The translations under genes were made by a program, and so were the position numbers. Positions 16,868 through 44,123 of a DNA stretch of 55,911 bases are shown one piece after another. The stretch comes from an uncultured Roseburia sp. (lineage in GTDB: Bacteria; Bacillota; Clostridia; Lachnospirales; Lachnospiraceae). The DNA lies in assembly GCA_947088345.1 (NCBI GenBank), contig CAMUGE010000015.1:1-55911 (forward strand). The letters are read 5' to 3'. How positions within the stretch are numbered: position 1 is the first letter of the stretch; each line of letters starts with the position of its first letter. The notes beneath the pieces are model-generated. The model was not told where the DNA came from and ran no database searches. It saw nothing but the letters and a program-made list of their open reading frames with translations.

Positions 16868-17162
16868 AATTCTAAATCTGATACAGGCGATTATTTATTA
16901 AAGTAAAAGCTGATTTCAGGTTTATAGACATATTCCCGCAAACGGCAAAACTGTGAAAAAGGTTATTGATATATTCCCGTAATCGGAAAAATATCAAAGA
17001 AATTCAGCGTATCCAGACGAGCCATTTAGTTCTTCCTCCTAAATATGTAATTTTGACCAGAAATCTGACCATAAAACACTTTTATTTTATACAATTCTTA
17101 CAGTTTTCCATAACTTTCCGTCTGTTTTTGGCGTATGTTATCCGTAGAAATGAAAAAAAGGA
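16868..17162. other. AT-rich intergenic stretch with a diverged direct repeat
   Basis: No convincing gene. Two related segments 40 nt apart, at about 16928 and 16968, both read GA.ATATTCCCG.AA.CGG. The second forms a hairpin with TTGATAT pairing to ATATCAA. The core GATATATTCCCGTA (16968-16981) is the reverse complement of 8373-8386, just ahead of recombinase 1. These are possible recombinase or prophage attachment sequences. A 75-codon open frame here has no ribosome site and atypical composition, and was not called. Confidence 0.4.
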
Positions 17163-17191
17163 TTGTCATTTTAATCAATTAGTGGTAAGAT
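17163..17191 (+). promoter_or_regulatory. Sigma-A promoter upstream of the dead TnpB gene
   Basis: TTGTCA (17163-17168), a 17-nt spacer and TAAGAT (17186-17191) with TGG before the -10. The predicted leader is about 185 nt. It holds an inverted repeat, CAGATTAT (17203-17210) against ATAATCTG (17244-17251). Confidence 0.65.
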
Positions 17192-17202
17192 AATGCCGAT
17201 AT
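17175..17202 (+). promoter_or_regulatory. Candidate SigD (sigma-28, flagellar) promoter
   Basis: GCCGATAT at 17195-17202 is an exact match to the Firmicute SigD -10. TCAA at 17175-17178, 16 nt upstream, is a 3-of-4 match to the TAAA -35. It overlaps the end of the sigma-A promoter. If used, tldR would be expressed with the flagellar regulon. Confidence 0.45.
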
Positions 17203-17382
17203 CAGATTATGAAAGATAAAATATCTGCTTTTACTATTAGAAAATAATCTGTTGGCGTTTCATAGATTAGCTGAATCTGCGAAATCTCCTGTACAGTGAT
17301 TGTGCTATGATTCCCCGATATGATATTGCAGAACAAATTTTTCTCAAAAACAGAAAACAGGTTGACTGGAAAGGCGAATCAT

Positions 17383-18717
17383 ATGTCTTCGGACAACACT
17401 ATCACCAAAACCGTCCGGCAGTACAGTAAAGCGCTGCCAAAAGAGACAATGGATTTCTTAAAAGGGATTGCATTGGATTACAGCAAAGTCAGGAATTATG
17501 TCTATGGTAAATATGCCGGAGTGCACAGACTTGACAGCTTGACGCCTGTTTATGGCATTTTAAATGAGATGCGTCACTGTGGACTCAGGGAACAGTTGAA
17601 TTTTCCGGCTGTCTACTATGAGCTTGCTGTTACAGACGCTGTTGCGGATATTAAGCGCAGCTGGGGGATTGTAAAAAATAAGGTCGGTGAGAGGATCACT
17701 GCAAACGAAAATTTAAGCGATGACGACAGGATCTATTTAAGAACGGTGTTAAAAATTGGCAGTGTGTATGCGGCCATTCTAAACCGCCGGGAATATGAAA
17801 CGCCCAAAAATGCAAAAGACCTGTCGGTTGATACAAAAAGGCTTAATAACCTGCTTTGCAGATTGACCAGAAGATATCTGACGGTACCGCAGACAAAAGA
17901 CGACGACTGGTTTCGGATATCGCCAAACGGCTATTCTTACAGGGACGGTGAGATCCGTATTGTTTGCAGAACTCCGCGGAAACGCATTTCTATACCACTA
18001 AAAGATGAAAGAGAGTTTGATCGGCAGATCCGCATCCAGATCAGAAACGAGGATGTTGTACTGGCAGTTCCGGTAGAAGTAAAAATCAGGTCGCATAATG
18101 ACTATTGTCATACAATTTATGCCTATATCGGCAGAACAGATATGATTACTCTGTCGAACGGGGCCGTTTACGGGGAAAGATTAGAAGAAATAGTAGACCC
18201 TGAGACGGAACGGCTTGCTGAGAAAAACAGGGAACGCCGCAGGATGTATAAAGTGTTTGAGAAGAACGCGAAAAGCGGCAATGAACGGAAAGCAAAAGAA
18301 ATTGAGACAAATAACCTTGGCAGACAAAAATATGAGAGGCAGAAAGAAAAAGAAAAAAGCAGAACAACGACGTTTATCAATGCTGAGATCAACAGAATGC
18401 TTCGAAATGAGAAGCCTGCCAGAATTGTAATTACAAGGCCGGTGCAAAAAAATAAAGCTAAGTTTTATGCAAAAACGGTAAACAGGAGACAGACACGTTC
18501 GTTTGAACCTTATATCAGGGAAAGACTTGCCTATAAATGCAATATAAATTCAATCGAACTGGTGGAGATTAATGCGAAAGGCGCCGGTAAAATCTGTGCG
18601 GAATGCGGCGCGGAAGGAAAGCGGCAGGGAAAGGAATTTATCTGTGAGTTGTGCGGCGCACAGACAACAATCGCTATAAATTTTGCAAAGAATATACGAC
18701 GAAAATACAGTAGTTAA
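17383..18717 (+). CDS. Nuclease-dead TnpB homologue, candidate TldR RNA-guided repressor
   Basis: 444 aa from the ATG at 17383 (GGAAAGG 8 nt upstream; an in-frame ATG at 17320 is poorly placed). The length and order match IS605-type TnpB: helical REC/WED-like N-terminus, RuvC halves and a zinc ribbon. All three RuvC acidic residues are replaced. The RuvC-I Asp position is Tyr248 (AYIGRTDMITLSNG). The RuvC-II Glu position is Thr351 (IVITRPV). The RuvC-III Asp position is Ala431 (TTIAINFAKNI). The zinc ribbon is intact (Cys405, Cys408, Cys421, Cys424). Known TldR proteins are TnpB derivatives that lost nuclease activity and repress promoters using a guide RNA encoded downstream. No TnpA gene is near. 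A full open frame with coordinated active-site loss argues for domestication, not decay. Confidence 0.82.
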   Translation: MSSDNTITKTVRQYSKALPKETMDFLKGIALDYSKVRNYVYGKYAGVHRLDSLTPVYGILNEMRHCGLREQLNFPAVYYELAVTDAVADIKRSWGIVKNKVGERITANENLSDDDRIYLRTVLKIGSVYAAILNRREYETPKNAKDLSVDTKRLNNLLCRLTRRYLTVPQTKDDDWFRISPNGYSYRDGEIRIVCRTPRKRISIPLKDEREFDRQIRIQIRNEDVVLAVPVEVKIRSHNDYCHTIYAYIGRTDMITLSNGAVYGERLEEIVDPETERLAEKNRERRRMYKVFEKNAKSGNERKAKEIETNNLGRQKYERQKEKEKSRTTTFINAEINRMLRNEKPARIVITRPVQKNKAKFYAKTVNRRQTRSFEPYIRERLAYKCNINSIELVEINAKGAGKICAECGAEGKRQGKEFICELCGAQTTIAINFAKNIRRKYSS

Positions 18718-18725: not shown

Positions 18726-18960
18726 ATGTATCAGTCTGAGAATAAATGGCCGAAAGGTGATTTTACCGTTTCACGGATCGCAGAAAGATACATTAACATA
18801 GAGAGCAAAAAGTCGGCATTAGCTAAGCCGAAAGGCGGACAGAGGTCTGCAGAGGAAGCTTTCGGGTATGCCAGGACCGCGGCTTTACGCGGAGCGAAGC
18901 ACTTATTTAGAATGGAAATAGTGCAGACGGAAACGTCCCGATAATCCATATGATAATAAG
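18726..18960 (+). ncRNA. Candidate omega-RNA / guide RNA of the dead TnpB
   Basis: Directly after the tldR stop lies a highly structured stretch, where omegaRNAs sit in TnpB loci. Visible stems: ATGTATC/GATACAT (18726-18732 with 18787-18793), TCGGC/GCCGA (about 18812-18831), GTCTGCA/TGCAGAC (18845-18851 with 18922-18928), GCTTTCG/CGAAGC (18858-18864 with 18895-18900), CCGCG/CGCGG (18877-18881 with 18888-18892), a CACTTATTT/AAATAGTG hairpin (about 18899-18923), and GACG-GAAA-CGTC (18926-18937). The last two long-range options compete, as in a switch or pseudoknot. The guide would then begin near 18938 with CCGATAAT. A 72-codon open frame across the region has no ribosome site and is treated as chance. 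RNA ends are inferred. Confidence 0.65.
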
Positions 18961-18997: not shown

Positions 18998-21535
18998 ATG
19001 AGAAAAGCACAGGTAAAACAGGCAATTGAACTTGTTTCACAGATTGAAGAGGCGCATAGCCAGATCAAAAAATACATAGAGCAAAAGAACAACCAGCCTG
19101 CCATGGAGCTTCTCTGTGACTGCCAGAATGGTGCAATTGCCATCGGGACATTAATCGAGAGTACAGAGGGGGAGGGTCATTGCGCGGTAGTTTTGTTGGA
19201 GCAGTACTGTGAACTGGCCTACCGATTGTATGAAGATCTTCGGGAAAACAGGGAGGTCAGTGCAAATAAAATCTATAAACTGTTAAAACAGGAAACAGTC
19301 AGGATATCAAACAATATAAAACATAAGATTCAAATTCGTACCGAAGCGGTTTTTCTGCCATATAAGGCAAGTATGTGGGATAGTCTGGAGAGTGTATGGC
19401 GGGCCGCAGATGCAGATAAAAACTGTGATGCCTATGTGATCCCGATTCCGTATTATGACAAAAATCCGGACGGAAGTTTTCGCGAAATGCACTATGAAGC
19501 CGATCAGTTTCCGGACGATGTTCCCGTTACAAAATATGATGAATTTGATTTTGAGACGCACAAACCGGATATGATTTTTTTCCATAATCCGTATGATAAT
19601 ATGAACTATGTGACGAGCGTACATCCTTTTTTTTATTCGGATCATTTAAAGCAGTTTACAGAAAAACTTGTTTATATTCCCTATTTTGTTCTTGGAGAGA
19701 TCAGTCCGGAGAATGAGCCGGAAATAGAAGAAATGAAGCATTTCTGTACCGTTCCCGGCGTATTACACGCGGATAAAGTAATTGTTCAGTCAGAGGATAT
19801 GAAACAGGTATATCTTAAAGTACTGCTTGCGGCAATGAATGACAGCAGCGATGCGGCGAAAACTTACTGGGATGGGAAAATACTGGGGCTTGGTTCGCCG
19901 AAGTTTGACAGGATTGTCCAAATGAGGCAGGAAGATATTGAAATTCCGCAGGCATGGGAAAAGATTATTGAGAAGCCGGATAAAAGCCGCAAGAGAATTA
20001 TTTTGTATAATACGACGATTAACGGGCTGCTTGGTCACAACGAAATAATGCTGAGAAAAATAGAGAGTGTGTTAGAGAAGTTAAAAGAAAATCGGGATAA
20101 AGTTGTATTGCTTTGGCGACCGCATCCTTTGATTGAGAGCACGCTCACCTCAATGCGACCGCAGCTATGGGATGCATACCGGGAAATTCGGGATAAGTAT
20201 ATACGGGAGGGCTGGGGAATTTATGATGATTCTGCAGATCTGGATCGTGCTGTATTGGTCAGCGACGTTTATTATGGGGATTACAGCAGTGTTGTGCAGG
20301 TGTACAAAAAGACGGGAAAGCCGGTTATGCTGCAGGACTGCAGCATCACTTATCTGAATGATGAAAAAATGCAATACGTAAGAATGATAAAAAGTTATCT
20401 TTATGAGGATAAATTGATTTTTGCATCTACAGACTACAACGCTTTGTTTTCAGCAGATATCACAAGTGGGGAGATTCTATATCTTGGTAGATTTTCCGGA
20501 GAAAAAACAGAGCAAAGTAATTTGTTTTCACAGGTAGTGCAGTTTGAAACATCAATAGCAGTATGCCCTTGTCTGGCATCTTCGGCATATATTTATGATT
20601 GCCAAAAAAAGGAGATCAGGGAACTTTGTATTGCCGGTTTGCGGAATCATTCTTACCAGATATTCCCTGTTTTGGAACAGGGAGAGGAAGTATTGTATAT
20701 AATACCCACGTTTGGAGCAGTGTTTGGTCAACTGAACAGGGAAATGTCCGGTTTTGTGTTTAAAGTTAATTTTCAGGAAGAATATGAGAAAAGGACGGGA
20801 AAGAAATATAAGGTCGGTTCAGACAGCGGTTTATATGTTTATAACGGATGTCTTTATTTTGCAGTATGCGAGGACAGCTTTCTTGTAAAATTTCATATGC
20901 AGTCGCATCAGATGACATTCCTTAAAATAGCAGAAGCAGACGGCGGATTTTATAAGATATTGGGAGCAGGGCATATTCTCTATGCGATGAATGTAAAAAA
21001 CAAAATCATCTCTTATGATCTGGAAAAGGAGCGCGTTGTTTCTGTCTTGGATTTTTGCACACGGGAAAGTGAAAGCAGTCTGTTTCGGGATGGTTTTTTC
21101 TGGGGAGAATCGATTTACTTTGTTTCCTATCAGTCGAATCAATGTGTGAAATATATACCGAAAAGCAGAGAATTAACAGTCAGTACAATAGAAAGTGAAT
21201 GGAATATAGAAACAGAGGATCGCGAAGTATATCATTTTACTTGTTTAGCGGGAAAGAAAACAATCTTCTTTGTTTCAAATAAAAACCATCTTGTGCGGCT
21301 GAATGAGAACGATCAGAGGCGCCATACAATAACACTTCGTTATGATGAAGAGGAATTAAAAAAACAAATAACCAAAGAAATGGAGAAAGACAGAGAATCT
21401 GTAATACTGGAAAATGAATTTACAGGAGATCTGCAGGCGTTACTTCATTACATAAAAAAACATGACGAAAAAAGAAAACTTTTTAAAAGCGGGCAGATGA
21501 TTGGGCAGAGAGTTTATGAACAGGTCATACGCTAA
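18998..21535 (+). CDS. CDP-glycerol glycerophosphotransferase-like protein with propeller-like C-terminus
   Basis: 845 aa. After a helical N-terminus (1-110), residues about 115-440 resemble the CDP-glycerol:polyglycerophosphate transferase fold (TagF-like). Features are FFHNPYDN, YIPYFVLGE, then VLLWRPHPLIEST and YYGDYSSVVQVYKKTGKP, the nucleotide-binding C-terminal half. Residues about 450-800 are repeated beta segments with aromatic residues (KIISYDLEKERVVSVLD), like a beta-propeller. It is the first gene after the dead TnpB RNA and begins the glycan operon. It probably transfers a glycerol-phosphate-type or sugar-phosphate unit to a protein or polymer. Such proteins recur in flagellin and surface glycosylation loci of Clostridia. 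The donor is unknown. Confidence 0.65.
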   Translation: MRKAQVKQAIELVSQIEEAHSQIKKYIEQKNNQPAMELLCDCQNGAIAIGTLIESTEGEGHCAVVLLEQYCELAYRLYEDLRENREVSANKIYKLLKQETVRISNNIKHKIQIRTEAVFLPYKASMWDSLESVWRAADADKNCDAYVIPIPYYDKNPDGSFREMHYEADQFPDDVPVTKYDEFDFETHKPDMIFFHNPYDNMNYVTSVHPFFYSDHLKQFTEKLVYIPYFVLGEISPENEPEIEEMKHFCTVPGVLHADKVIVQSEDMKQVYLKVLLAAMNDSSDAAKTYWDGKILGLGSPKFDRIVQMRQEDIEIPQAWEKIIEKPDKSRKRIILYNTTINGLLGHNEIMLRKIESVLEKLKENRDKVVLLWRPHPLIESTLTSMRPQLWDAYREIRDKYIREGWGIYDDSADLDRAVLVSDVYYGDYSSVVQVYKKTGKPVMLQDCSITYLNDEKMQYVRMIKSYLYEDKLIFASTDYNALFSADITSGEILYLGRFSGEKTEQSNLFSQVVQFETSIAVCPCLASSAYIYDCQKKEIRELCIAGLRNHSYQIFPVLEQGEEVLYIIPTFGAVFGQLNREMSGFVFKVNFQEEYEKRTGKKYKVGSDSGLYVYNGCLYFAVCEDSFLVKFHMQSHQMTFLKIAEADGGFYKILGAGHILYAMNVKNKIISYDLEKERVVSVLDFCTRESESSLFRDGFFWGESIYFVSYQSNQCVKYIPKSRELTVSTIESEWNIETEDREVYHFTCLAGKKTIFFVSNKNHLVRLNENDQRRHTITLRYDEEELKKQITKEMEKDRESVILENEFTGDLQALLHYIKKHDEKRKLFKSGQMIGQRVYEQVIR

Positions 21536-21568
21536 GCGATAAAAATAATGGATATTGGGGAAAACAGG

Positions 21569-22546
21569 ATGAAAGCATTAGTAACAGGTGCAGATGGATT
21601 TATAGGAAGTCATCTGACAGAGGAATTGATAAAACAGGGAATACAGGTAAGGGCTTTTGTATATTATAACTCTTTTAATTCCTGGGGATGGCTGGATACG
21701 CTTCCGGAGGAAGTTAAAAGTGAGATTGAAATATTCAGCGGTGATATACGTGATCCAAATGGAGTGAGGAAAGCAGTGGAGGGCACGGATCTTGTTTTTC
21801 ATCTTGCCGCTTTGATTGCAATTCCTTATAGCTATCATTCTCCGGATTCCTATGTAGATACAAATATAAAAGGCACGTTAAATGTATTGCAGGCTGTAAG
21901 GGATTTTGAGACGGAAAGAGTTTTGGTGACATCCACATCCGAAGTATACGGTACGGCTAAATATGTTCCGATTGATGAAAAGCATCCGTTTCAGGGGCAG
22001 TCTCCTTACTCTGCGACTAAAATAGGAGCGGACAGGCTTGCGGAAAGTTTTTACCGTTCTTTTGAGCTTCCGGTGACAATTGTGAGACCATTTAATACAT
22101 ATGGGCCAAGGCAGTCAGCAAGAGCTGTGATTCCGACGATAGCGGTTCAGCTGCTGAACGGAAAAGAAGAGATTAAGCTGGGGTCTCTCAATCCGACCAG
22201 AGATTTTAACTTTGTGAAAGATACCGTAAACGGATTTATAGAGATTGCAAAGTGTCGTTCTGCAATAGGAGAAGAGCTTAATATTGCCACCCAGAAAGAG
22301 ATAAGCATCGGTGATCTGGCGGAAAAAATCATACAAAAGATTAATCCACAGGCGCGGATAATTTGTGAAGATATTCGTTTAAGGCCTGATAAAAGTGAAG
22401 TAAACAGGCTGCTGGGAAGCAATGAAAAAATAAAAAAATTTACAGACTGGATGCCGGAATACAGTATTGACAGAGGCCTTGAAATTACCATCGAATGGAT
22501 ACGAAACAATTTAAACAGGTATAAGGCGGATAGATACAATATATAA
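21569..22546 (+). CDS. legB: NAD-dependent 4,6-dehydratase, LegB-like
   Basis: 325 aa from the ATG at 21569 (TTGGGG upstream); the ORF also has an ATG at 21548. It is an extended short-chain dehydratase: TGADGFIGSH is the NAD-binding loop, TSTSEVYG and YSATKIGAD hold the catalytic Ser/Thr and Tyr-x3-Lys, and RPFNTYGPRQS is conserved. The protein closely follows the pattern of LegB, which makes the 4-keto-6-deoxy intermediate from GDP- or UDP-GlcNAc in legionaminic acid synthesis. The next genes (CBS-nucleotidyltransferase, epimerase, SpsF, NeuB, SpsG) belong to the same pathway type. Confidence 0.8.
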   Translation: MKALVTGADGFIGSHLTEELIKQGIQVRAFVYYNSFNSWGWLDTLPEEVKSEIEIFSGDIRDPNGVRKAVEGTDLVFHLAALIAIPYSYHSPDSYVDTNIKGTLNVLQAVRDFETERVLVTSTSEVYGTAKYVPIDEKHPFQGQSPYSATKIGADRLAESFYRSFELPVTIVRPFNTYGPRQSARAVIPTIAVQLLNGKEEIKLGSLNPTRDFNFVKDTVNGFIEIAKCRSAIGEELNIATQKEISIGDLAEKIIQKINPQARIICEDIRLRPDKSEVNRLLGSNEKIKKFTDWMPEYSIDRGLEITIEWIRNNLNRYKADRYNI

Positions 22547-22576
22547 ACATCCTGGTGTCCGGAGATAGGGCGGTTT

Positions 22577-23632
22577 ATGGATAAGTTGCAGGATATTTGT
22601 ACAGAAGAGGGCATAAAAGTAAGAGAGGCCATACAGAGACTGGATTCTGGCAGGCATAAAATTCTGATTGTCACAAAACATAGAAAAGTTACCGGTATTG
22701 TTACAGACGGGGATGTAAGAAGATGGATTTTAAGAAAAGGGTCGTTTGACGCTGATATCTCCGAACTAATGTGCAGGACGCCAAAAACAATATATGAAGA
22801 TCAGGTGAGCAGCGCCAAAGAGATTATGCTGAACGCCCGGATCGATGCCATACCGGTAATTAACAATGCAGATGAGCTTGTTGATATGATTTTTATTCGG
22901 GATCTGGTACAAAATGAAGTAATAAATTATCAGAAGATAGACATACCGGTTGTAATAATGGCTGGAGGAAAAGGGACGAGACTGAGTCCATATACGAGTA
23001 TTTTGCCCAAACCACTGATGCCAATCGGTGCAAAAACAATATTGGAACGTATTATAGATTCCTTTCAGAAAAACGGATGCAGCAGTTTTCTGCTGACGTT
23101 AAATTATAAGAAGAATCTGATTAAAGCATACTTTGATGACAAAGAAAAAGATTATGAGATCGGGTATGTGGAAGAAGAAGATTTTTACGGAACCTGCGGC
23201 AGCCTATGTCTGCTAACAGACAAAATAAACGGAACATTTTTTTTGAGTAATTGCGATGTATTACTGGATATAGATTATGCAAAATTATATGAATTTCACA
23301 GGGAACACCATAACGAAATCACCGCAGTGACATCATTAAAGCATTTTCAGATTCCTTACGGAATTTTTGAATTGGAGACAGGCGGAGCCATTTGTAAAAT
23401 CTCAGAAAAACCGGAATTTAATTATCAGGTTAACACCGGGATTTATGTCATGGAATCAACCGTACTGGGGGAGATTCCGAGAGGTAAAGTATATCAGATG
23501 ACGGATCTGCTGGACCGGTTAATGAGAGAGGGAAGAAGAGTGGGCGCATATCCTGTAACAGAGAACTGTTGGAAAGATATGGGGGAATTAAATGAAATGC
23601 ATAAAATGCTGGATGCGTTTCAGACAAGTTAA
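22577..23632 (+). CDS. ptmE: CBS-domain sugar-1-phosphate nucleotidyltransferase, PtmE-like
   Basis: 351 aa. Residues about 8-115 are a pair of CBS domains (KVTGIVTDGDVRRWIL and IDAIPVINNADELVDMIF). Residues about 125-350 are a nucleotidyltransferase with the signature MAGGKGTRLSPYT and KPLMPIGAKTI, and NCDVLLDIDY for metal binding. This fusion is typical of PtmE, the glucosamine-1-phosphate guanylyltransferase of the Campylobacter legionaminic acid route, which supplies the GDP-sugar used by LegB. The CBS pair may sense nucleotides. It lies 30 nt after the LegB-like gene. Confidence 0.8.
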   Translation: MDKLQDICTEEGIKVREAIQRLDSGRHKILIVTKHRKVTGIVTDGDVRRWILRKGSFDADISELMCRTPKTIYEDQVSSAKEIMLNARIDAIPVINNADELVDMIFIRDLVQNEVINYQKIDIPVVIMAGGKGTRLSPYTSILPKPLMPIGAKTILERIIDSFQKNGCSSFLLTLNYKKNLIKAYFDDKEKDYEIGYVEEEDFYGTCGSLCLLTDKINGTFFLSNCDVLLDIDYAKLYEFHREHHNEITAVTSLKHFQIPYGIFELETGGAICKISEKPEFNYQVNTGIYVMESTVLGEIPRGKVYQMTDLLDRLMREGRRVGAYPVTENCWKDMGELNEMHKMLDAFQTS

Positions 23633-23644
23633 GAAGGACAGAAC

Positions 23645-24511
23645 ATGAAACCGACAGAAAATATATTAATAACAGGTGGAAACGGATTTATCGGAAGGCA
23701 TTTAATAGAATATTTACAGACGAAACATTATCGGGTGATTCATCCCGATTCACAGGAGCTTGACGTCAGAACAGAAGCAGATTTTGATTCTTTCTGCGGA
23801 ACGGATATTTCACATGTCATACATCTTGCGGGCAGGACATTTGTCCCGGCAAGCTGGGAAAATCCGAAAAATTTTTTTGAAGTGAACGTTATGGGAACTT
23901 TACAAGTCATTGAATTTTGCAGACGATACGGGATTAACCTTACATATATCAGCGCCTGTATTTATGGACAGCCAAAGTCGATCCCTGTGTCGGAAACAAG
24001 TGATGTCAAACCGGATAACCCGTATGCGAAATCAAAATATATGGCAGAGGAACTATGTGAATTTTACAGCAGTTTTTTTTCGATGAATATTTCAGTCTTA
24101 AGGCTGTTTAATGTATATGGTCCCGGGCAGAATGAAAACTTTTTAATTCCCGCCATTATGCGGCAGCTGTGTTCAGACAGTGCAAAAATAGAAGTAAATG
24201 ATTTAAATCCAAGGCGTGATTATATCTATATCGAAGATGTGTGTAATGCAATTGAGCTGTCGATTGAAAAATCAAAAGGATTTCAGTTGTATAATATTGG
24301 TTCGGGAGTCTCTTTTTCTGTACAGGAGATCATTGATCTGCTGCAGAAACTGGCAGGGACACACAAGCAGACAGTATCCAGAAACATGGTCAGGAGAAAT
24401 GAGTTAAATGATGTGACAGCGGATATTTCATGCATAAAAGAAAACTGGAAATGGGAACCGTCCATTTCTTTGGAAGAGGGACTGAGAAGATGCCTGCTGG
24501 CGGAAAAGTAA
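23645..24511 (+). CDS. NAD-dependent epimerase/dehydratase
   Basis: 288 aa short-chain dehydrogenase/epimerase of the extended type: TGGNGFIGRH near the N-terminus, HLAGRTFVP, SACIYG and the active-site YAKSKY. The sugar substrate is not clear. It follows the PtmE-like gene by 12 nt and is probably part of nucleotide-sugar synthesis for the nonulosonic acid or another glycan precursor. A role as 4-ketoreductase or epimerase is possible. Confidence 0.75.
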   Translation: MKPTENILITGGNGFIGRHLIEYLQTKHYRVIHPDSQELDVRTEADFDSFCGTDISHVIHLAGRTFVPASWENPKNFFEVNVMGTLQVIEFCRRYGINLTYISACIYGQPKSIPVSETSDVKPDNPYAKSKYMAEELCEFYSSFFSMNISVLRLFNVYGPGQNENFLIPAIMRQLCSDSAKIEVNDLNPRRDYIYIEDVCNAIELSIEKSKGFQLYNIGSGVSFSVQEIIDLLQKLAGTHKQTVSRNMVRRNELNDVTADISCIKENWKWEPSISLEEGLRRCLLAEK

Positions 24512-24522
24512 GGAGAAAGCAG

Positions 24523-25590
24523 ATGGAGAAGAATGTACCGATCAATAAGGGCAATTACACAATGGAACCGCCGGAGAGAGAGGCGCTGTTTGAAGAGAAA
24601 CGGGCAGCCGGATGGGTAGAGGAGTATAAAAACTACCGCACAGGCTGGTGCGAATATCCAAAGACACAGTATATATCAGAATATCCGCTATTAGTTGATC
24701 TTGAATTATCGTCTCTGTGTAATTTGAAGTGTCCGATGTGTTATACCATCACAGATGAATTTAAGAGGAAAGTTCATACACAGCTGATGGAATATGAGAT
24801 TTTTACGAAAGTTATAGATGAAATTGCGGGAAAAGTTCCTGCTGTGCGTTTAAGTCTGCGGGGAGAGGCAACGCTTCACCCACAGTTTATTTCCTGTATC
24901 TCATATTGCAAGAGCAAAGGAATCGGGGAAGTATCATTTCTGACAAATGGAAGCAAACTGACAAAAGATTATTTTATACAGATTATGGATGCCGGGGCAG
25001 ACTGGATTACGATCTCCGTAGACGGCTTGCAGGAACAATACGAGAGTATCAGGAAGCCTTTAAAATTTGAGGACACGCTTCAAAAAATAAAAGAAATTCA
25101 TGAAGTAAAACAGGAAAGAAATGTATCGAAACCGGTGATAAAAGTGCAGGGAATCTGGCCGTCCGTTCGGAGCGATCCTGCCGGATATTATAATACGTTC
25201 GCACCCTATGTGGATTATGTGGCGTTTAATCCGTTGATTGATTATCTGGACAAAGATGAGGACATTGTGTATGAAGAAAACTTTTCCTGTCCGCAGTTAT
25301 ACCAGCGTCTGGTAGTCGGATCGGACGGAAAAGTTTTATTATGTTCGAATGATGAAGACGGGATGCAGATTTTGGGGGATGTACATGAGCATTCTGTTTA
25401 TGAAATCTGGCACGGGGAAAAATTAAATCACATACGTAAACTTCATCAGACCGGCAAGTTTAAAGAAATTAATGTATGCCAAAAGTGTTACCTGCCCAGA
25501 GCGACAGAGGAAAATGAGCGCGCTAATATAAACGGGCGGGAAATTGTGATCAAAAATTATATCAACAGAGCGCAGGAGATAGGGGAATAA
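24523..25590 (+). CDS. Radical SAM/SPASM-like protein
   Basis: 355 aa from the ATG at 24523 with AAGGAGA upstream; an ATG farther upstream overlaps the previous gene. The radical SAM motif is CNLKCPMC (CxxxCxxC) around residue 70, followed by LRGEATLHPQF and NGSKL. The C-terminus has a second cysteine set (SCPQLY, LLCSND, VCQKCYLP) that suggests an auxiliary cluster as in SPASM/Twitch proteins. Similar genes occur in Campylobacter-type flagellar glycan islands and Clostridia glycan loci, where they may modify sugars. The substrate is unknown; sugar modification is inferred from the neighbours. Confidence 0.75.
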   Translation: MEKNVPINKGNYTMEPPEREALFEEKRAAGWVEEYKNYRTGWCEYPKTQYISEYPLLVDLELSSLCNLKCPMCYTITDEFKRKVHTQLMEYEIFTKVIDEIAGKVPAVRLSLRGEATLHPQFISCISYCKSKGIGEVSFLTNGSKLTKDYFIQIMDAGADWITISVDGLQEQYESIRKPLKFEDTLQKIKEIHEVKQERNVSKPVIKVQGIWPSVRSDPAGYYNTFAPYVDYVAFNPLIDYLDKDEDIVYEENFSCPQLYQRLVVGSDGKVLLCSNDEDGMQILGDVHEHSVYEIWHGEKLNHIRKLHQTGKFKEINVCQKCYLPRATEENERANINGREIVIKNYINRAQEIGE

Positions 25591-25593
25591 AAG

Positions 25594-26301
25594 GTGACAG
25601 GAATTATTATACAGGCAAGAATGGGGTCGAGCAGGCTTCCCGGAAAAATATTAAAAGATTTTGATGGAAAGACATTATTAGGACATATTCTGGACAGACT
25701 TAAAAAACTTCAGTCAGCTGTAACGACAGTGATTGCCACCAGTGATCTGGCCGCAGATGATGAGGTACAGGAATTTTGCAGAAAAAATAATACGATATGT
25801 TTTCGCGGCGATGAATTAAATGTTTTAAAAAGATATTGCAATTGTGCGGCAAGATATCAATTTGACCAGATTGTCAGAATGACAGGGGACAATCCGTTTC
25901 CCGATATAGAAGAACTTGACCGGCTGATTCGTTTTCATGAAGAAAAGGAGATGGAGTTTTCCGAAAATTTTTCTGTTCTGCCGGTTGGAGTGGGAATGGA
26001 GATCATGTCGTATTCGGCGTTAGAGGAAAGCTTAAAAAATGCTTCATTGCCGAAACATTTTGAACATGCGGACGAATATATACTGGATCATCTTGCACAG
26101 TACAGACATGGCACGCCGGATGTGCCCGGATGTAAAAATAAACCAAAGGTCAGGCTGACAGTAGACACATGGCAGGATTATGAAAAAGCCTGTTTTATCA
26201 TAAAGCAGGCACAGTCTGATTATGTGACGACAGAACAGGCAATCGCGCTCAGTGCAGAGTATGAGCGGAGGGAATATCATTTCAGAAAGGAAACGTCATG
26301 A
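25594..26301 (+). CDS. SpsF-like cytidylyltransferase (CMP-nonulosonate synthase type)
   Basis: 235 aa from a GTG at 25594, 3 nt after the previous stop. The N-terminus IIIQARMGSSRLPGK is the signature of SpsF/NeuA-like nucleotidyltransferases, with MTGDNPFPD carrying the metal-binding Asp. In spore-coat and flagellar loci this family is placed beside NeuB/SpsE and SpsG proteins and is thought to activate the nonulosonic acid with CMP. It overlaps the PIG-L deacetylase gene by 4 nt. Confidence 0.75.
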   Translation: MTGIIIQARMGSSRLPGKILKDFDGKTLLGHILDRLKKLQSAVTTVIATSDLAADDEVQEFCRKNNTICFRGDELNVLKRYCNCAARYQFDQIVRMTGDNPFPDIEELDRLIRFHEEKEMEFSENFSVLPVGVGMEIMSYSALEESLKNASLPKHFEHADEYILDHLAQYRHGTPDVPGCKNKPKVRLTVDTWQDYEKACFIIKQAQSDYVTTEQAIALSAEYERREYHFRKETS

Positions 26302-26924
26302 ACATATTGGCAGTAGGAGCGCATTTTGATGATATCGAACTTGGCTGTGGGGGAACTTTGGCGAAGCATGTAAAAGCAGGGGACAATGTGATTGTTTTTA
26401 TTGCCACAGATTCACAGTTTCGGAACCGCAGCGGAGAAATTCTGCGCGATGGAAAAACTGCATTGGAAGAGGCGAAAGAAGCGGCTTCTATCATCGGATA
26501 CAAGCTGGTACTGGGTGGTATTCCTACGTTTGAGCTTGAATATGGGGAAGCGGTTCATGCGAAATTATTACAGATTATTGAGGAAAATAAGATAGAACTT
26601 ATTTATACACACTGGTGCCATGATGTGCATCATGATCACAGAAATCTTTCCTATTGTACGATGCATGTCTCAAGGCATGTAAATAAGCTGCTGATGTACC
26701 GCAGTAACTGGTATGTTTCTGAAAAAGAATTTTGCGGGAATTTTTTTGTTGATATCACTGAAACATGGGAGACGAAAGAAAGAGCCGTGAAATCATATAA
26801 AACGGAGATGGGCAGAACGGGAGGTTCGTGGCTAACCTGGTTTCGTCAGGATGCCGTCAATAACGGATTAAAAATGGGCGTTGAATATGCGGAGATTTTT
26901 CAGCTTGTGAAGTGGCTTGCATAA
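26298..26924 (+). CDS. PIG-L family GlcNAc-type deacetylase
   Basis: 208 aa. The motif AHFDD (residues 8-12) provides the zinc His-x-Asp-Asp, and HDVHHDH near residue 110 provides the second His cluster. PIG-L/LmbE enzymes remove an N-acetyl group from GlcNAc-containing compounds. Here the substrate may be an intermediate of the nonulosonic acid or 3-amino sugar pathways, allowing re-acylation with another group. Starts within the previous stop (ATGA overlap). Confidence 0.85.
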   Translation: MNILAVGAHFDDIELGCGGTLAKHVKAGDNVIVFIATDSQFRNRSGEILRDGKTALEEAKEAASIIGYKLVLGGIPTFELEYGEAVHAKLLQIIEENKIELIYTHWCHDVHHDHRNLSYCTMHVSRHVNKLLMYRSNWYVSEKEFCGNFFVDITETWETKERAVKSYKTEMGRTGGSWLTWFRQDAVNNGLKMGVEYAEIFQLVKWLA

Positions 26925-26976
26925 CAAAACACCTGAATATAGATAAAATATATGGAGAAAGCGGGAAAAAGATACG

Positions 26977-27987
26977 ATGCGGTTTGGAAGAGAGAAATGT
27001 TATATTATTGCAGAAATAGGAGGCAATTTTACGGATTATGAAACAGCTGTCAGGCTGATCGATCAGGCAAAAGCGAGCGGCGTGGATGCAGTTAAGCTGC
27101 AGACTTACCGGGCAGATACAATCGCGTCAAAGCAGGCGGTATTTGATATGGAAAATACGGGTATCGCTTCTCAGACAGAATACTTTCGCAGGTTTGAATT
27201 AAGTGAAGAACTGCACAAAAGAGTATTTACTTATGCGAAAGAGAAAGGTCTGGACGTTTTTTCCACACCGTCGCATAAGACGGATATAGAAATGTTGGAG
27301 AGACTTCAGACAGATGTATATAAAACAGGAGCGGATGATGTTACAAATCTGCCGTTTCTTAGGGAAGTTGCAAGACAAAAGAAACCTGTCCTGCTTTCAA
27401 CCGGTATGTGTACCATGGGGGAAGTAAGAGAAGCAGTCGATACCATTGTGGCGGAGGGAAACACGGATATTGTAATTATGCATGTAGTCAGCTTGTATCC
27501 GACAGCGTCAAAGTATGTAAATCTGGAAGCAGTAAAAACGCTTCAGAGGGAATTTCCGCAGTTTGTGATTGGATATTCGGATCATACGTCAGGCGTTGAT
27601 TCCTGTATTTTCGCTGCAGTAATGGGGGCAAAAGTCATCGAAAAACATTTTACGTATGATAAGAATGCAGACGGACCGGATCATATGCTTTCTGCAACCG
27701 TAGATGAAATGAAATTGATGGTAGATAAAATCAGACTTTTTGAGGAAATGCGGGGAAATGGGATTAAGAGACCAATGGGGGATGAGAGAAAGAACCGCAG
27801 AAATAACAGAAAAAGTATTGTCTGTACAAGAAATATAAAAGAAGGAGAGGTACTGACAGAAACAGAGATTGATATCAAAAGACCCGGGTATGGAATCTGT
27901 CCGAAGTATAAAGAGATGGTAATTGGAAAGCGCGCGCGCCGGGATTTAGAAGAAGATACTGTTCTGCAGTGGGAAGATATTAGATAG
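26977..27987 (+). CDS. NeuB-family nonulosonic acid synthase (LegI/SpsE-like)
   Basis: 336 aa. Residues about 1-260 are the NeuB TIM barrel: YIIAEIGGNF, VDAVKLQTYRAD, KPVLLSTGM, GYSDHT, AKVIEKHFT and the DHMLS stretch. Residues about 270-335 are the SAF (antifreeze-like) domain, starting RKSIVCTRNIKEGEVLTE. It condenses phosphoenolpyruvate with a 2,4-diacetamido-6-deoxy sugar to give a legionaminic or related acid, or sialic acid from ManNAc. The LegB-like and SpsG-like neighbours favour the former. Full length and motif-complete. Confidence 0.88.
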   Translation: MRFGREKCYIIAEIGGNFTDYETAVRLIDQAKASGVDAVKLQTYRADTIASKQAVFDMENTGIASQTEYFRRFELSEELHKRVFTYAKEKGLDVFSTPSHKTDIEMLERLQTDVYKTGADDVTNLPFLREVARQKKPVLLSTGMCTMGEVREAVDTIVAEGNTDIVIMHVVSLYPTASKYVNLEAVKTLQREFPQFVIGYSDHTSGVDSCIFAAVMGAKVIEKHFTYDKNADGPDHMLSATVDEMKLMVDKIRLFEEMRGNGIKRPMGDERKNRRNNRKSIVCTRNIKEGEVLTETEIDIKRPGYGICPKYKEMVIGKRARRDLEEDTVLQWEDIR

Positions 27988-27993
27988 ACTGTT

Positions 27994-28953
27994 ATGAAGT
28001 TTGCGGTATGTATTGAAAGTTCCCACCAAAGGGGAATGGGACATTTTTACAGGGCTTTAAATATTGTGGAATATTTGAAACAGGCAGGGGAGGAGAGCCT
28101 TATTATAATAAATCAGGATAAAGCTTCCCTGCAGATTCTGGACAAAAGAAAGATTCCGTATGTTGTTGCAGATTATTCGGATGTTGCAGGCAACTGGGAG
28201 AAAACAGTAATTGAAAAATACCATATCGAAGTTTGGCTGCTGGATAAATTTCAGACCGGGTGTGAGCTCGCGGAACATGTGAAAAATGAGAATATTATTC
28301 TGGCTGCAATCGATGACTGCGGAGACGGAGCTCAGTTTGTGGATCTGCATTTTTGCAGTATGCTGTTTCATAATCTGCGGGGGAAACATATTTATACCGG
28401 AAAAGATTACCTTATTTTAAACCGGGAGATCAAAAAGTTTCGAAGAAAACGCAGCAAACTGGAGAAAGTTCTGATAACTTTGGGTGGAAGCGATACATAC
28501 GGCGTTACTATCAAGGCGATCAGAATCCTAAAAAAATCGGGGTGGCGGGCGGACGTTGCGATTGGCCCCAATTTCAGACACAGGGAGCCTTTGTTTCGGG
28601 AAATGAGCCGCGGCTGCATGGTTTATCAGTCGGCGCCGTCGCTGATAGAACTTTTTTATCAATATGATCTTGCCGTTACCGGAGGCGGAGTCACCTGTTT
28701 TGAGGCAAATGCATCAGGACTTCCCTGTATTATGATAGCAAATGAATTACATGAGATTGATACGGCAAAATATATTGAGACTTTTGGCGGTGCGCTATTT
28801 GCAGGTTACTATCAGAATATTAATGAAAGTATGTTTGATATTGATAAATTACAGGCTGAAAAAATGAGTGCTGCCGCATTGAGAGAATTTCATTTAGACG
28901 GTATGGCAAACATATATAGAATCATAAAAAGGTACAGGGAGAAAGATAAATGA
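27994..28953 (+). CDS. SpsG/PseG-like UDP-sugar hydrolase
   Basis: 319 aa GT-B-like protein. RGMGHFYRALNI matches the GxGHxxR signature of SpsG/PseG, where the His is catalytic. TLGGSD and VTGGGVTCFEANASGLP form the nucleotide-binding half. PseG removes UDP from 6-deoxy-AltdiNAc in pseudaminic acid synthesis. Here it could do the equivalent hydrolysis before NeuB or act as a transferase. Placement right after NeuB supports the former. No strong ribosome site; coupled to the preceding gene. Confidence 0.75.
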   Translation: MKFAVCIESSHQRGMGHFYRALNIVEYLKQAGEESLIIINQDKASLQILDKRKIPYVVADYSDVAGNWEKTVIEKYHIEVWLLDKFQTGCELAEHVKNENIILAAIDDCGDGAQFVDLHFCSMLFHNLRGKHIYTGKDYLILNREIKKFRRKRSKLEKVLITLGGSDTYGVTIKAIRILKKSGWRADVAIGPNFRHREPLFREMSRGCMVYQSAPSLIELFYQYDLAVTGGGVTCFEANASGLPCIMIANELHEIDTAKYIETFGGALFAGYYQNINESMFDIDKLQAEKMSAAALREFHLDGMANIYRIIKRYREKDK

Positions 28954-29648
28954 GTGATAAGATTGTGGTCATACATCAGCCGGATTTTTTACCGTATCTG
29001 GGTTTTTTTTCCAGATTAGATAAGGCAGATATATATGTTGTGTTTGATAATGTACAGTATGTACGCAGCAGCAGAGGCTGGAACAGCAGGGATAAGATAA
29101 AAACAAAAAACGGGGAAAAGTGGATTACAGTCAGTACTCAAAAAGCTCCCAGAGAGACGGCGATTAATAAAATTCTGTTGTCAAAAGATGAAAGATGGCG
29201 GGAAGACCATATCAATCTGATTGTACAGAATTATAAAAGCGCTCCTTATTTTCATGAGATTATGCCTTATCTGGAGGAGTTATACCAGTATCAGTGTGAA
29301 AGAATGATGGATTTCAATTTAAAATCCATTTACCTGCTGATGGAGTTATTTGATATTCAGGTGGAGACAGTGACAGCAAGTGATTTAAATCCGGTCGGAA
29401 AAAATAATCTGCTGATTATTGATATCATGAAAAAGCTGAACTGTCATAAATACTTATCCGGTGTCGGGGCGAAAGATTATTTTGTTCCGGAACCGTATGA
29501 ACAGGCAGGAATAGAAGTGATCTGGCAGGATTTTAAACATCCGGTATATCAACAGCAATATGATGGCTTTCTGCCATATCTGAGCAGTATAGACTTGTTA
29601 TTTAACTGCGGAATAGCGGAGTCAAGAAAGATAATAAAGGAGATATGA
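28950..29648 (+). CDS. WbqC family protein
   Basis: 232 aa with the family start VIHQPDFLPYLGFFSRL and VQYVRSSRGWNSRDKI. WbqC-like proteins occur in many O-antigen and flagellar glycan loci. Their activity is not settled; an N-acyl or amino-acid transfer on sugars has been suggested. It overlaps the preceding and following genes by 4 nt each. Confidence 0.8.
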   Translation: MSDKIVVIHQPDFLPYLGFFSRLDKADIYVVFDNVQYVRSSRGWNSRDKIKTKNGEKWITVSTQKAPRETAINKILLSKDERWREDHINLIVQNYKSAPYFHEIMPYLEELYQYQCERMMDFNLKSIYLLMELFDIQVETVTASDLNPVGKNNLLIIDIMKKLNCHKYLSGVGAKDYFVPEPYEQAGIEVIWQDFKHPVYQQQYDGFLPYLSSIDLLFNCGIAESRKIIKEI

Positions 29649-30598
29649 AAAAAATATTGGAATATAAGTGTGTTGTCTGGGGAATAGGAAATGATTATGA
29701 GAATCTTGTGAACCAAATCCAATTTGAGGTTGCGAAAGGAAATATAATTATCACAGCTTTGGTAGCGAGATCACAGGATATTGTTGAGAAAACTTTGGAT
29801 GGCATTATTATTGTTACCAAAGAAGAAATGAAAGATATGACATTTGATTATCTGATTGTAACAAGTTCCCTGTATTTTCAGAGGATTGTCGAAGAAGCAA
29901 AAGAGCTGAATATCAGTGAGGACAAAATTATTAATGGTTCGGTAATGAAGTTACCATTCTTTGATTTCAGAAGATATGTATCGTTAGTGGAAAACAGAAT
30001 TACAATACTCTCTGACGACTGTTGGGGCGGTTATATATATCATAAGCTCTTTATGAAATTTTACTCTCCATGTATTAATATCAAGTGGCAGAAAGATTCC
30101 TTTGTAAAATTTATACAAAAGCCCAGGTATTACCTTAGTCAGCCGCTGAGAATGGAGAGGGAGGGAGACATACGCGGAAATCTTTTTCCAATAGGCAGTT
30201 TGGGTGAGGGTGAAGAGAAAGTATATATGGATCTGGTGCATTCTGTATGTTTTGAAGATGCGAAGAAACTCTGGGATAAAAGACTAGAACGTGTAAATTT
30301 TGAAAATCTTTTTATTAAGCTTGGTATTGACGCGTCTGATAAAAACAGAGATTTCTATTTAGATGGATTTGATCAGGTAAAACAAAAAAAGATATGTTTT
30401 TACTCAGGTAAAACAGAGAGCAAGAGCGTCATTTATTTAAAGAGATTTGAGAAGTTTGTCACAACAGGGGCAAGAATGGATACCATAAAATACCATGATT
30501 ATTGCAGAGACCTGGATTGGCTGTTGAAGTCCATTGATATTCTGAAGTTGCTGAATGGAAAAGAAAATTTTTTACGGGAGGGGCAGCATGTATCTTGA
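29645..30598 (+). CDS. DUF1919 protein with N-terminal Rossmann-like module
   Basis: 317 aa. Residues 1-100 are a Rossmann-like module (VVWGIGNDYEN, FDYLIVTS) shared with several neighbours. Residues about 115-310 match DUF1919: SDDCWGGYIYHKL, FYSPCINIKWQKDSFVKFI. DUF1919 proteins are found in exopolysaccharide and surface-glycan loci and are thought to be transferases; no reaction is established. The gene overlaps the next by 11 nt. Confidence 0.7.
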   Translation: MKKILEYKCVVWGIGNDYENLVNQIQFEVAKGNIIITALVARSQDIVEKTLDGIIIVTKEEMKDMTFDYLIVTSSLYFQRIVEEAKELNISEDKIINGSVMKLPFFDFRRYVSLVENRITILSDDCWGGYIYHKLFMKFYSPCINIKWQKDSFVKFIQKPRYYLSQPLRMEREGDIRGNLFPIGSLGEGEEKVYMDLVHSVCFEDAKKLWDKRLERVNFENLFIKLGIDASDKNRDFYLDGFDQVKQKKICFYSGKTESKSVIYLKRFEKFVTTGARMDTIKYHDYCRDLDWLLKSIDILKLLNGKENFLREGQHVS

Positions 30599-31733
30599 AG
30601 ATGAGATTGATCGGATCAATCGGCGATTAACGCAGTTAAAGGGAAAAAAGAATATCGTGATATGGGGAGCGGCGGAGAATACAGCAAAGCTTTTTGAGTA
30701 TACGAATCTTTGTCAGTATGGTGAATTTTGTGTTGTGGATACAGGAAAATCTGGAAGCAATTTTTTTGGTAAAAAAGTACTGCATCCGGACGAACTGGAT
30801 TGGTCGCAGACAGACGCGGTTGTGATCTCTGCTTTTTATCGGGAAAATGAGATTGAACATGTGCTGCTGCAAAAAAATGAGTTTCAGGGTCTTGTGCTAA
30901 AGCTAAATGAGCCGGGGCAGAGCGTTCCCTTTTATAAACATTTATCCAGAGAAGAACTGCGTGCGCCAAAGCAGTATCAGCATATTTTGGACAAAAATAA
31001 ATGCTTTCAAAACCGACATAGGAATCAGAGGATTTTCATATTGTGCTGCGGGCCATCTGTCAAAGATATGGACTTAACTGTTTTAAAAGATGAGATTACA
31101 ATGGGGGTGCACAGTTTTTACATGCACAAAGACATCGGAACAATCCGGCCCGATTACTATTGCAACGCACAATGGGGATATAATGAGAAATGGACAAAGG
31201 AAGTAGGCATTCAGTATTTAGGTGAGTTAAAGAGATATGTGGGAGAAACGCAATTCTTTTTTTCGATACAGGAAAAGGAGGTAATTGAGAACAGCCATAT
31301 TTTTAAACCGGAAGAAGTTTCCTATTATTATTATGGGCCAAGTACTTTCGGATATGAGGATATAGATCTTTGCCAGGGAATCATGCCGGTGCAATCGGTA
31401 CCGATCCTGTGTATTCAGCTGGCTTTCTATATGGGTTTTGGGGAAATCTATCTGATCGGAACCGATCATGATTTTTTACGGACTAACAAGTATTCGTATT
31501 TTTATAACAGAGAGGACAGTGTGCTTGGGAAAGCAGACTTTTCTGTAGATTCCAATAATAATGTGACTGTAAGTTATGCGCAGGCTTTGAGAGCTAGTTA
31601 TTATCTCTGGGAAGATTATAAAAAAATGAGGGAGATAGCCAATGGAAAAAATGTAAAGATATGGAATGCTACCGTTGGCGGTGATCTGGATTTGTTTCCA
31701 CGAGTGGATTTTAAGGAGCTGTTTCATAAGTAA
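30588..31733 (+). CDS. DUF115 (MAF-like) protein with Rossmann-like module
   Basis: 381 aa from the ATG at 30588 with GGGAGGGG upstream. The N-terminal module (about 20-120) starts KNIVIWGAAENTAKL. Residues about 150-370 are DUF115: RIFILCCGPSVKDMDL, PDYYCNAQWGY, EIYLIGTDHDFL. DUF115 is the core domain of motility accessory factors (Maf), which add nonulosonic acids to flagellin, and of related surface-glycan transferases. The nearby NeuB set fits this use, but the assignment to flagellin is inference. Overlaps the DUF1919 gene by 11 nt. Confidence 0.7.
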   Translation: MYLEDEIDRINRRLTQLKGKKNIVIWGAAENTAKLFEYTNLCQYGEFCVVDTGKSGSNFFGKKVLHPDELDWSQTDAVVISAFYRENEIEHVLLQKNEFQGLVLKLNEPGQSVPFYKHLSREELRAPKQYQHILDKNKCFQNRHRNQRIFILCCGPSVKDMDLTVLKDEITMGVHSFYMHKDIGTIRPDYYCNAQWGYNEKWTKEVGIQYLGELKRYVGETQFFFSIQEKEVIENSHIFKPEEVSYYYYGPSTFGYEDIDLCQGIMPVQSVPILCIQLAFYMGFGEIYLIGTDHDFLRTNKYSYFYNREDSVLGKADFSVDSNNNVTVSYAQALRASYYLWEDYKKMREIANGKNVKIWNATVGGDLDLFPRVDFKELFHK

Positions 31734-31762
31734 GCAAAAGAATATGTAATGTGGAGGAAGAA

Positions 31763-32887: not shown

Positions 32888-33308
32888 ACATTATAAAATA
32901 ATTGAATTGCCTGAAATGGGGGATGAAAGAGGAAATCTGGTAATTATTGAAGGAAATCGGGACATTCCGTTTGAGATAAAACGAGTGTTTTATATGTATG
33001 GAACGGATTCAAAAATGGTACGTGGAAGCCATGCAAACAGGAAGTCGGAATTTGTGCTGATTAATGTTGCCGGAAGTACAAAAATTAAAATTGACGACGG
33101 TTTTTCTACTGCCATAGTGGAGTTGAACAAGCCAAGAATGGGAATTTATATACCCGCTATGTTATGGAAAGATATGTTTGATTTTTCAGATGATTCTGTA
33201 TTACTGGTATTGTCAAATGAACATTATGACGACAGCGAATATATCAGGAATTATGATGAGTATAAAAAAATTATTTCAGAAAAGAATGAATTTATACATC
33301 ACAGATAA
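32874..33308 (+). CDS. fdtA: dTDP-sugar 3,4-ketoisomerase, FdtA/WxcM-like
   Basis: 144-aa single cupin domain: MGDERGNLVIIEGNRDIPFE and VRGSHANRKSEFVLIN hold the conserved His of the family (HxH-type in relatives). FdtA moves the keto group of dTDP-4-keto-6-deoxyglucose from C4 to C3, ahead of 3-amination. The aminotransferase at 34393 would then give Fuc3N or Qui3N. No rmlA or rmlB is in the window, so the substrate must come from elsewhere. Confidence 0.78.
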   Translation: MKIHEHYKIIELPEMGDERGNLVIIEGNRDIPFEIKRVFYMYGTDSKMVRGSHANRKSEFVLINVAGSTKIKIDDGFSTAIVELNKPRMGIYIPAMLWKDMFDFSDDSVLLVLSNEHYDDSEYIRNYDEYKKIISEKNEFIHHR

Positions 33309-33360
33309 ATAAGAGATCCGGACTGGGGTGCTGAAATAATTCTGATCTGTGGAGGAAAAA

Positions 33361-34332: not shown

Positions 34333-34392
34333 TTGGAAGTTACCGTATGTGGAACTTACATTGGTAAATATTTTCGGAAAGAGACAACGATT

Positions 34393-35487: not shown

Positions 35488-35704
35488 TTGAAAAAAGATC
35501 CGTTAATTACTGCAGATTTTTTATTTTGCAAAAAAGTTTGCGCTAATGCGGCAAAGATGGAGGTAGTGTGAGGAGAACTTCTAAAGCTCGCAGCAGATCC
35601 TGCTTCGCTAAGAAGTTCTAAGTCTCATACCAGAGAATCCCCCAAAACAGGGGATTCTCCGCGCAGATTTGAGTCGCGGAAGAGCCGCGACATGGGAGGT
35701 TAGC
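35488..35704. repeat. Intergenic cluster of three strong hairpins
   Basis: No gene, but three perfect stems in about 120 nt: AGAACTTCT/AGAAGTTCT (35574-35582 with 35611-35619), GAGAATCCCC/GGGGATTCTC (35633-35642 with 35650-35659) and TCGCGG/CCGCGA (35674-35679 with 35685-35690). The density resembles a small dispersed repeat element or a structured RNA inserted in the operon. A ribosome site GGGAGG follows for the next gene. Confidence 0.6.
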
Positions 35705-36924: not shown

Positions 36925-36949
36925 TTCGAGATGAAACGGGAGTTGGAAG

Positions 36950-38188: not shown

Positions 38189-38208
38189 AGAAGGGAAAGG
38201 TTCATTTT

Positions 38209-44107: not shown

Positions 44108-44123
44108 TCAGGGGGACGGCAGT

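Follow-up and report, generated by a model that had tools for sequence, protein, structure and literature searches.

A nuclease-dead TnpB homologue at a Lachnospiraceae surface-glycan locus as a candidate RNA-guided repressor of rival glycan loci

Introduction

What would a TnpB-like protein with a dead nuclease site be doing at the head of a surface-glycan locus? This question is raised by the window, the whole stretch of 55,911 nucleotides from an uncultured Roseburia sp. that was analysed here, in which a sequence-only reading had picked out one gene as a candidate TldR. Proteins of this kind are named in PMC11481859 and treated in the setting of flagellin in PMC13418256, as far as the accessible parts of these two sources go. 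The answer developed below, which is considered quite probable, is that this gene, called here tldR, encodes a repressor of the TldR type which shuts off rival glycan loci while leaving its own untouched, and which is probably phase-variable.

A TnpB homologue without its catalytic triad

The gene and its immediate surroundings are as follows.

17383..18717, + strand: tldR, nuclease-dead TnpB homologue of 444 aa, with Y248/T351/A431 at the RuvC positions and a C405/C408/C421/C424 zinc ribbon
18998..48120, + strand: surface-glycan locus headed by tldR (NeuB, cytidylyltransferases, epimerases, aminotransferase, glycosyltransferases)
18998..21535, + strand: fam1, encoding 845 aa with a weak match to the CDP-glycerol glycerophosphotransferase domain (PF04464, E 9.4e-7); its place beside tldR is conserved, and the predicted target belongs to its family

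The open reading frame extends from 17320 to 18717 on the + strand, is free of frameshifts and contains at 17383 the ATG common to the orthologues. Its product is recognised by Pfam as carrying a Cas12f1-like TNB zinc-ribbon domain (E 4.3e-8), with no domain beyond the TnpB type, and by the NCBIfam guided_TnpB model at E 1e-11, the 44.8 bits lying below the cut-off of 100. As in TldRs, the homology to TnpB covers the RuvC and zinc-ribbon part. The replacement of the RuvC-I, RuvC-II and RuvC-III residues by Tyr248, Thr351 and Ala431, originally deduced by eye, was borne out by an alignment in which these columns hold D, E and D in four intact TnpBs, two ordinary ones from genome L024 and those of G837 and G679; the window protein thus lacks the intact D/E/D of an active IS605/IS607-type TnpB. 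All three residues are missing from each of the 36 family rows aligned, some of which are partial and one of which has an internal stop read as X, after removal of L098, L102 and L103 (fragment or spurious) and of the duplicate L099. In these rows column 248 is occupied by S, A, H, Y or F, column 351 by P, T, V, A or G, and column 431 by K, A, R, P, G or S. The zinc-ribbon cysteines 405, 408, 421 and 424, reported as kept, are indeed invariant in 12 aligned copies, and no TnpA-type domain was detected by Pfam in the 31 window ORFs scanned, in agreement with the claim that no TnpA lies nearby. The dN/dS values of three ortholog pairs (0.117, 0.081 and 0.041), a check which the same reading had called for, demonstrate that the protein is under purifying selection rather than decaying. 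A structure prediction from seven sequences gave a pLDDT of 39 and was unusable.

The surface-glycan character of the neighbourhood was confirmed by the presence of NeuB, cytidylyltransferases, epimerases, a DegT-type aminotransferase and glycosyltransferases. This combination of fam1 and glycan genes recurs across tldR loci, so that the partners of the gene, as in TldRs, do not belong to a transposon. The family-wide loss of the triad, the low dN/dS, the recurring neighbourhood and the covarying RNA described below all support the view that this is a domesticated, nuclease-dead, TldR-like regulator of a Lachnospiraceae-type genome.

Distribution of the family

Five close orthologues, one of them from a Roseburia sp., were found in public Lachnospiraceae records with 68-90% identity. 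A whole-genome search of the family, in which the best 4 candidates were scored in many genomes, returned relatives at E 1e-30 or better in at least 17 of 397 genomes, with up to five tldR places per genome, fragments included. The genome of the window itself contains two copies, on contigs C15 (the window) and C30. Among 98 relatives, six matched tldR at E 1e-3, including G074 (E 6e-4, 25% identity), which is an ordinary TnpB. At the level of the class, 4 of 391 genomes matched the TldR, and two of these, G837 and G679, belong to another family and encode catalytically intact TnpBs with 37% identity to the orthologues L003 and L004. These proteins resemble the tldR family in being homologous to it over their full length and differ from it in having kept D/E/D. 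An RNA-like stretch, related by eye to the tldR scaffold, lies downstream of both; next to G837 neither a fam1 homologue nor a glycan cluster like that of the window was recognised, and two aminotransferase-like genes are found near G679.

Fragmentary or broken copies of tldR exist at G471:C52, G467:C10 and G467:C4, and a TGA interrupts the G297 copy. A first scan of a viral collection yielded no relative of tldR and a second one L275 alone. This record (IMGVR_UViG_3300006138_000186) starts with a clade A tldR followed by its RNA, of which the tip is AATCCTTATGATAAT, its fam1 motif being H-N-G-Y-D-D, and it looks like a bacterial glycan locus despite its presence in a viral collection. Two weak TldR matches in phage records were both entries of Thermus phage TMA.

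A covarying RNA downstream of tldR

A conserved stretch, predicted to be transcribed as a structured RNA beside the gene as in TldRs, stands downstream of tldR copies and ends in a tip that would act as guide.

18811..18942, + strand: guide-RNA scaffold core, conserved and covarying in clades A and B; the RNA may begin further upstream, in the direction of tldR or within the last part of that gene
18943..18957, + strand: predicted guide AATCCATATGATAAT, its first base uncertain by 1-2, with matches in the same genome on contig C4

Two sister clades, A and B, were treated separately, using 15 of 17 located cores for clade A and 12 of 20 for clade B, the longest being left out. For clade A, 23 base pairs were predicted, of which 15 are doubly changed, and 93.5% of the cells are paired; the covariation score of 0.562 compares with 0.219 in shuffles and a maximum of 0.212 when the structure is slid. 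The count of doubly changed pairs was matched by 4 of 500 shuffles and the other measures by none. For clade B, 17 of 28 predicted pairs are doubly changed and the score is 0.486, against 0.203 in shuffles and at most 0.101 when slid. These scores are to be read with the fact that each structure was predicted from the alignment that was then scored. Motifs such as CGGCATTA, GCCAGGACC and GGAGCGAAGC are common to the RNAs of both clades, and a search of Rfam for the tldR-linked RNA gave no match, even at E 1. In genome G384, a scaffold without tldR (L217:7293-7439, on G384:C52) and a tldR with no scaffold after it (L196, on G384:C30) were observed; this protein and this guide may act in trans.

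Guide and target sites of clade A

The tip of the window RNA reads ..CCGAT followed by AATCCATATGATAAT. The 18-base pattern GATAATCCATATGATAAT drawn from it has 16 matches in its own genome at up to 3 mismatches, when the backward control has 0, and at up to 1 mismatch it finds only itself and two places, both on contig C4 and both reading TACAT then AATCCATATGATAAT. The first lies inside a homologue of fam1, the glycerophosphotransferase-like gene, over the codons I-H-N-P-Y-D-N. The second is located 30 bases before the start of neuB, about 6 kb upstream of the first and on the same strand. The second locus of this genome, C30, has the guide AATTCGTATGATAAT, which differs at 2 of 15 bases from the C4 fam1 site and at 1 of 15 from the window fam1 site, the latter being flanked by TCCAT; the fam1 of C30 has itself lost the site and reads I-H-S-P-Y-D-E. 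Four intergenic sites carry TACAT and guide sequence, those of G000:C4 and G032:C3 (one late mismatch) preceding neuB, and those of G100:C12 (one mismatch) and G101:C48 standing upstream of the pair c7/c8.

The specificity of these matches was assessed against all other positions of the fam1 loci of the same genome. For 15 of 16 tested clade A guides, at most 2 of 15,031-35,803 such positions, which in some cases include the guide RNA itself, equal the best non-adjacent fam1 site; for the remaining guide, G438:C42, 9 positions are as good. Several clade A guides have no perfect fam1 match in their genome, the best reaching 11-14 of 15. A flank-adjacent match to the host genome, which is expected of a TldR, was thus found for clade A, and in part for clade B (14 of 21). 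A guide placed after TATGAT was also considered; the bases that follow have no convincing target in loci of the same genome, and this register was dropped since the conserved tip itself matches elsewhere.

Recoding of the fam1 copy next to tldR

19581..19600, + strand: recoded site in the fam1 of the window, TCCAT then AATCCGTATGATAAT, unlike the C4 target in its flank and in one base of the guide match

Compared with C4, the flank of this site has passed from Ile ATA to Phe TTC, and one further base is changed synonymously. The same contrast was observed in the nine genomes with clade A tldRs, where TACAT+AATCC[AT]TATGAT is present in 10 of 12 fam1 genes without a neighbouring tldR and in none of the 17 adjacent to one (Fisher p 3e-6), which indicates that own copies are recoded. 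The TACAT flank alone separates the two groups (10/12 vs 2/17, p 3e-4): the adjacent fam1 genes of G029:C140 and G009:C207 keep it and are set apart only by changes in the seed. This count excludes the clade B remnant at G438:C75, the copy at G000:C30, where the site is lost, and the truncated copy at G029:C137, which has no site, and takes the intact copy at G101:C8; scoring the broken fragment there instead had given 1/18. Relatedness inflates the test, as the fam1 tree provides four independent pairs, of which 2-3 behave as expected and 0 against (p 0.25), and descent accounts for part of the pattern. Moreover, 4 of the 12 non-adjacent genes are on contigs shorter than 7 kb, where a tldR may lie past the contig end. 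At G098:C31, G099:C152, G101:C46 and G101:C449, a tldR stands beside each fam1.

Codon usage gives a second view of the site. Among 41 codon windows of the 12 non-adjacent fam1 genes, it shares the top rank for synonymous-codon conservation (0.79 vs a mean of 0.50). For the 17 fam1 genes next to a tldR, 84 of 112 codon windows are at least as conserved as the site (0.44), and in the fam1 genes of clade B genomes this holds for 21 of 70 (0.49). A side observation concerns L222:1674-5425 (G101:C8), where the broken fam1 fragment, with TACAT and the site, lies beside the intact fam1, which has CTCAT.

A second fam1 motif matched by clade B

The tips of clade B RNAs, of the type ATATACCTTATTT, resemble another conserved stretch of fam1, L-V-Y-I-P-Y-[FY]. 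The register AATATGCCTTATTT was rejected, its 61 matches in 15 genomes being no more than the 62 of the backward control; the register GTATATRTWCCTTATT, found by comparison with fam1, gave 30 matches against 12 in 16 genomes. Matches in recG-like coding sequence were read as chance. The exact sequence GTATAT[AG]T[AT]CCTTATT occurs in the non-adjacent fam1 of G374, G297, G399, G492, G467, G158 and G438, as well as in one adjacent fam1 (G492:C50) and one intergenic place (G384:C42), and some sites of the form GTATATATATCTTATT precede genes in clade B genomes. A distinctive fam1 match, with at most 4 background positions as good, is found for 14 of the 21 testable guides and is missing for the other 7. 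The site is present in 1 of 8 adjacent and 7 of 16 non-adjacent genes, a difference which is not significant (p 0.19). Codon conservation of the motif is modest, 17 of 70 codon windows being as high, and the one lying two codons away ranks second. Clade B seems, on weaker sequence evidence than clade A, to aim at this second motif.

Of 40 guides, 33 match their target at 9 or more of the first 12 bases; over these bases, guide and target differ by 18 wobble-compatible changes, 4 opposite transitions and 10 transversions. The 17 distinct pairs, two of which take the broken fragment of G101:C8 as target, give 11, 4 and 5 respectively. A tolerance for wobble is suggestive only. The pair c7/c8, a short membrane-type and a secreted-type protein for which Pfam has no family, recurs beside clade B tldRs (L197:9849-10391, L075:12868-13956).

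An integrase module with inverted repeats

In the loci compared, 14 of the 17 genes of one integrase family (PF00589) adjoin a tldR. Inverted repeats of 16-30 nt, several of which carry TTTCGCAGA, border 16 of the 17, when none of 273 other genes of like length has inverted repeats of at least 16 nt and 5 of 273 have 14 nt. Relative to tldR, the integrase is encoded on the same strand at 10 loci and on the other at 4, as if both states of a switch had been caught. In 15 of 16 cases, promoter-like sites directed outwards occupy the interval from the start of the integrase to the repeat, three of them with a perfect consensus, against 7.1 expected from plain base shuffles. In the window, the following traces of such a module are found.

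17018..17296, + strand: remnant of an integrase-bearing segment, 86% identical to L023 1273-1549 (integrase start and leader)
17163..17191, + strand: promoter-like site TTGTCA-17-TAAGAT directed towards tldR, common to L023; a consensus match only
17258..17284, + strand: inverted-repeat arm, one of the two that border the integrase at L023, the orthologous locus; its partner is absent from the window

Only the first bases of the integrase, one arm and the promoter-like site remain, the integrase body and the second arm being absent from the window. Scans of the whole upstream regions gave 3 promoter sites each in the window and in L023 vs 2.3 and 4.4 in shuffles, and these counts, no higher than in shuffles, prove nothing alone. 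At L220:3169-6030 (G100:C23), two modules of integrase and inverted repeats are found next to each other upstream of tldR, in inverted orientation and separated by a run of N.

Proposed mechanism and alternatives

The loss of the triad, the selection on the protein, the covarying RNA, the guide-target match, the recoding of the own copy and the inverted repeats are features of the sequences themselves, and they could be joined in the following way. The nuclease-dead TnpB would bind the structured RNA encoded just downstream, and the tip of this RNA would guide the complex to sites flanked by TACAT in the rival surface-glycan loci that the cell carries, within fam1 coding sequence and, in several genomes, also in the leader or promoter of an operon for glycans or surface proteins. 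Since the guide reads in the same sense as the target mRNA, it cannot pair with this mRNA and could pair with the template strand of the DNA, where the complex, in a leader or in an ORF, would stop RNA polymerase as a roadblock. The tldR locus would in this way mute the default glycan locus, presumably with some benefit to the cell, and its own operon would be spared by the recoding of the adjacent fam1 at flank or seed. Given the integrase with inverted repeats found directly upstream at many loci, an invertible promoter probably sets the locus and its TldR on or off. A more complete scheme, favoured with some reserve, is that of exclusion among glycan loci: an integrase-flipped promoter would turn on one operon together with its TldR, the guide would silence the default operon both at its leader and in its fam1 ORF, the active operon would be immune through its fam1 copy, recoded at flank and seed, each of the two sister clades would rely on a conserved codon motif of its own within one enzyme, and a repression hierarchy would arise from several such loci in one genome.

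An RNA-guided complex might instead activate or mark its targets, or regulate mainly incoming glycan loci. The existence of targets in leaders and promoters as well as in ORFs would suit such a role, as would the mosaic nature of glycan loci between genomes. It seems improbable, however, since the TldRs described in the accessible part of PMC13418256 repress; template-strand binding within an ORF fits a roadblock, Pfam finds no extra domain in the protein, and the targets are resident in the same genomes. The RNA could also serve chiefly in cis, as the leader of the glycan operon, for instance a processive antitermination element with the protein as its partner and no targeting of DNA. Cis-acting structured RNAs are known at glycan operons, and the window-type RNA does stand between tldR and a long operon. 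Yet in L017, L018 and L019 fam1 precedes tldR and the RNA comes after both, and in L017 it is followed, from our reading of the gene order, by tryptophan-type genes instead of glycan genes; the tip, moreover, matches distant loci with a common flank, and there is little chance that this explanation is the correct one. Least probable of all is a neutral or decaying TnpB remnant hitch-hiking in glycan loci with a tip whose likeness to fam1 is accidental or a relic of fam1 sequence, for which fragments and broken tldR copies can be cited, and which is at odds with dN/dS values of 0.04-0.12, RNA covariation in both clades, 16 tip matches vs 0 in the control, intergenic sites sharing the same flank and two clades matching two different in-frame motifs of fam1.

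Relation to known systems

The repressor proposed here is closest in mechanism to the csrA-associated TldRs and closest in purpose to UpxZ of Bacteroides, as these are presented in the portions of the sources at hand. According to the available part of PMC13418256, the TldRs of flagellin-prophage and csrA type likewise combine a dead TnpB, a downstream guide RNA, conserved host-gene partners and guides directed to paralogues of the partner. Those linked to csrA also have targets inside ORFs, cross-target several paralogues and have an invertase (hin) as neighbour. The window type departs from the flagellin TldRs by its partner and target, the place of fliC being taken by a glycerophosphotransferase-like gene along with glycan leaders, and from the csrA type by a tyrosine integrase with its own inverted repeats in place of hin. 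The recoding of the own copy at flank or seed and the use of two sites in one enzyme by two clades are unlike the TldRs known from that part of the source.

In the Bacteroides capsule loci, as far as PMC7315117 was accessible, the UpxZ product of one glycan operon represses the transcription of non-adjacent operons, and some promoters invert, as in the switch proposed here. UpxZ is a protein acting on the UpxY antiterminators, whereas the window system would address DNA by a guide RNA; the likeness is one of purpose, not of homology. Cas12m, a Cas12/TnpB-type effector, is said in the accessible parts of PMC11013384 and PMC10442227 to bind DNA and silence without cutting. It belongs to CRISPR and to defence, in contrast to a guide encoded beside its gene and matching the host chromosome. 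A search of the PMC literature, of incomplete coverage and hence no ground for claiming absence from print, met no glycan-linked TldR, and the system is filed as a TldR variant, new as judged from its sequences. If correct, this proposal would add surface glycans to flagellin among the objects of natural RNA-guided transcription factors, would provide these gut Lachnospiraceae with an equivalent of the capsule hierarchy of Bacteroides, and would offer an example where the self/non-self discrimination of a guide is readable from the codons of paired genes. It is directly testable, since the silent operon can be predicted from sequence.

Left flank of the window

To the left of tldR, the window carries phage tail genes, a family-18 glycosyl hydrolase and serine recombinases (18-6557 and 8409-11964), apparently a prophage or other mobile element adjoining the broken switch. 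A GIY-YIG domain protein (LEM-3-like, PF22945, E 7.9e-16) is encoded at 14363-15160, between the recombinases and tldR. Three short consecutive palindromes with ends AACTAT..ATAGTT or alike are found at 16760-16865, between the mobile-element genes and the remnant of the switch.
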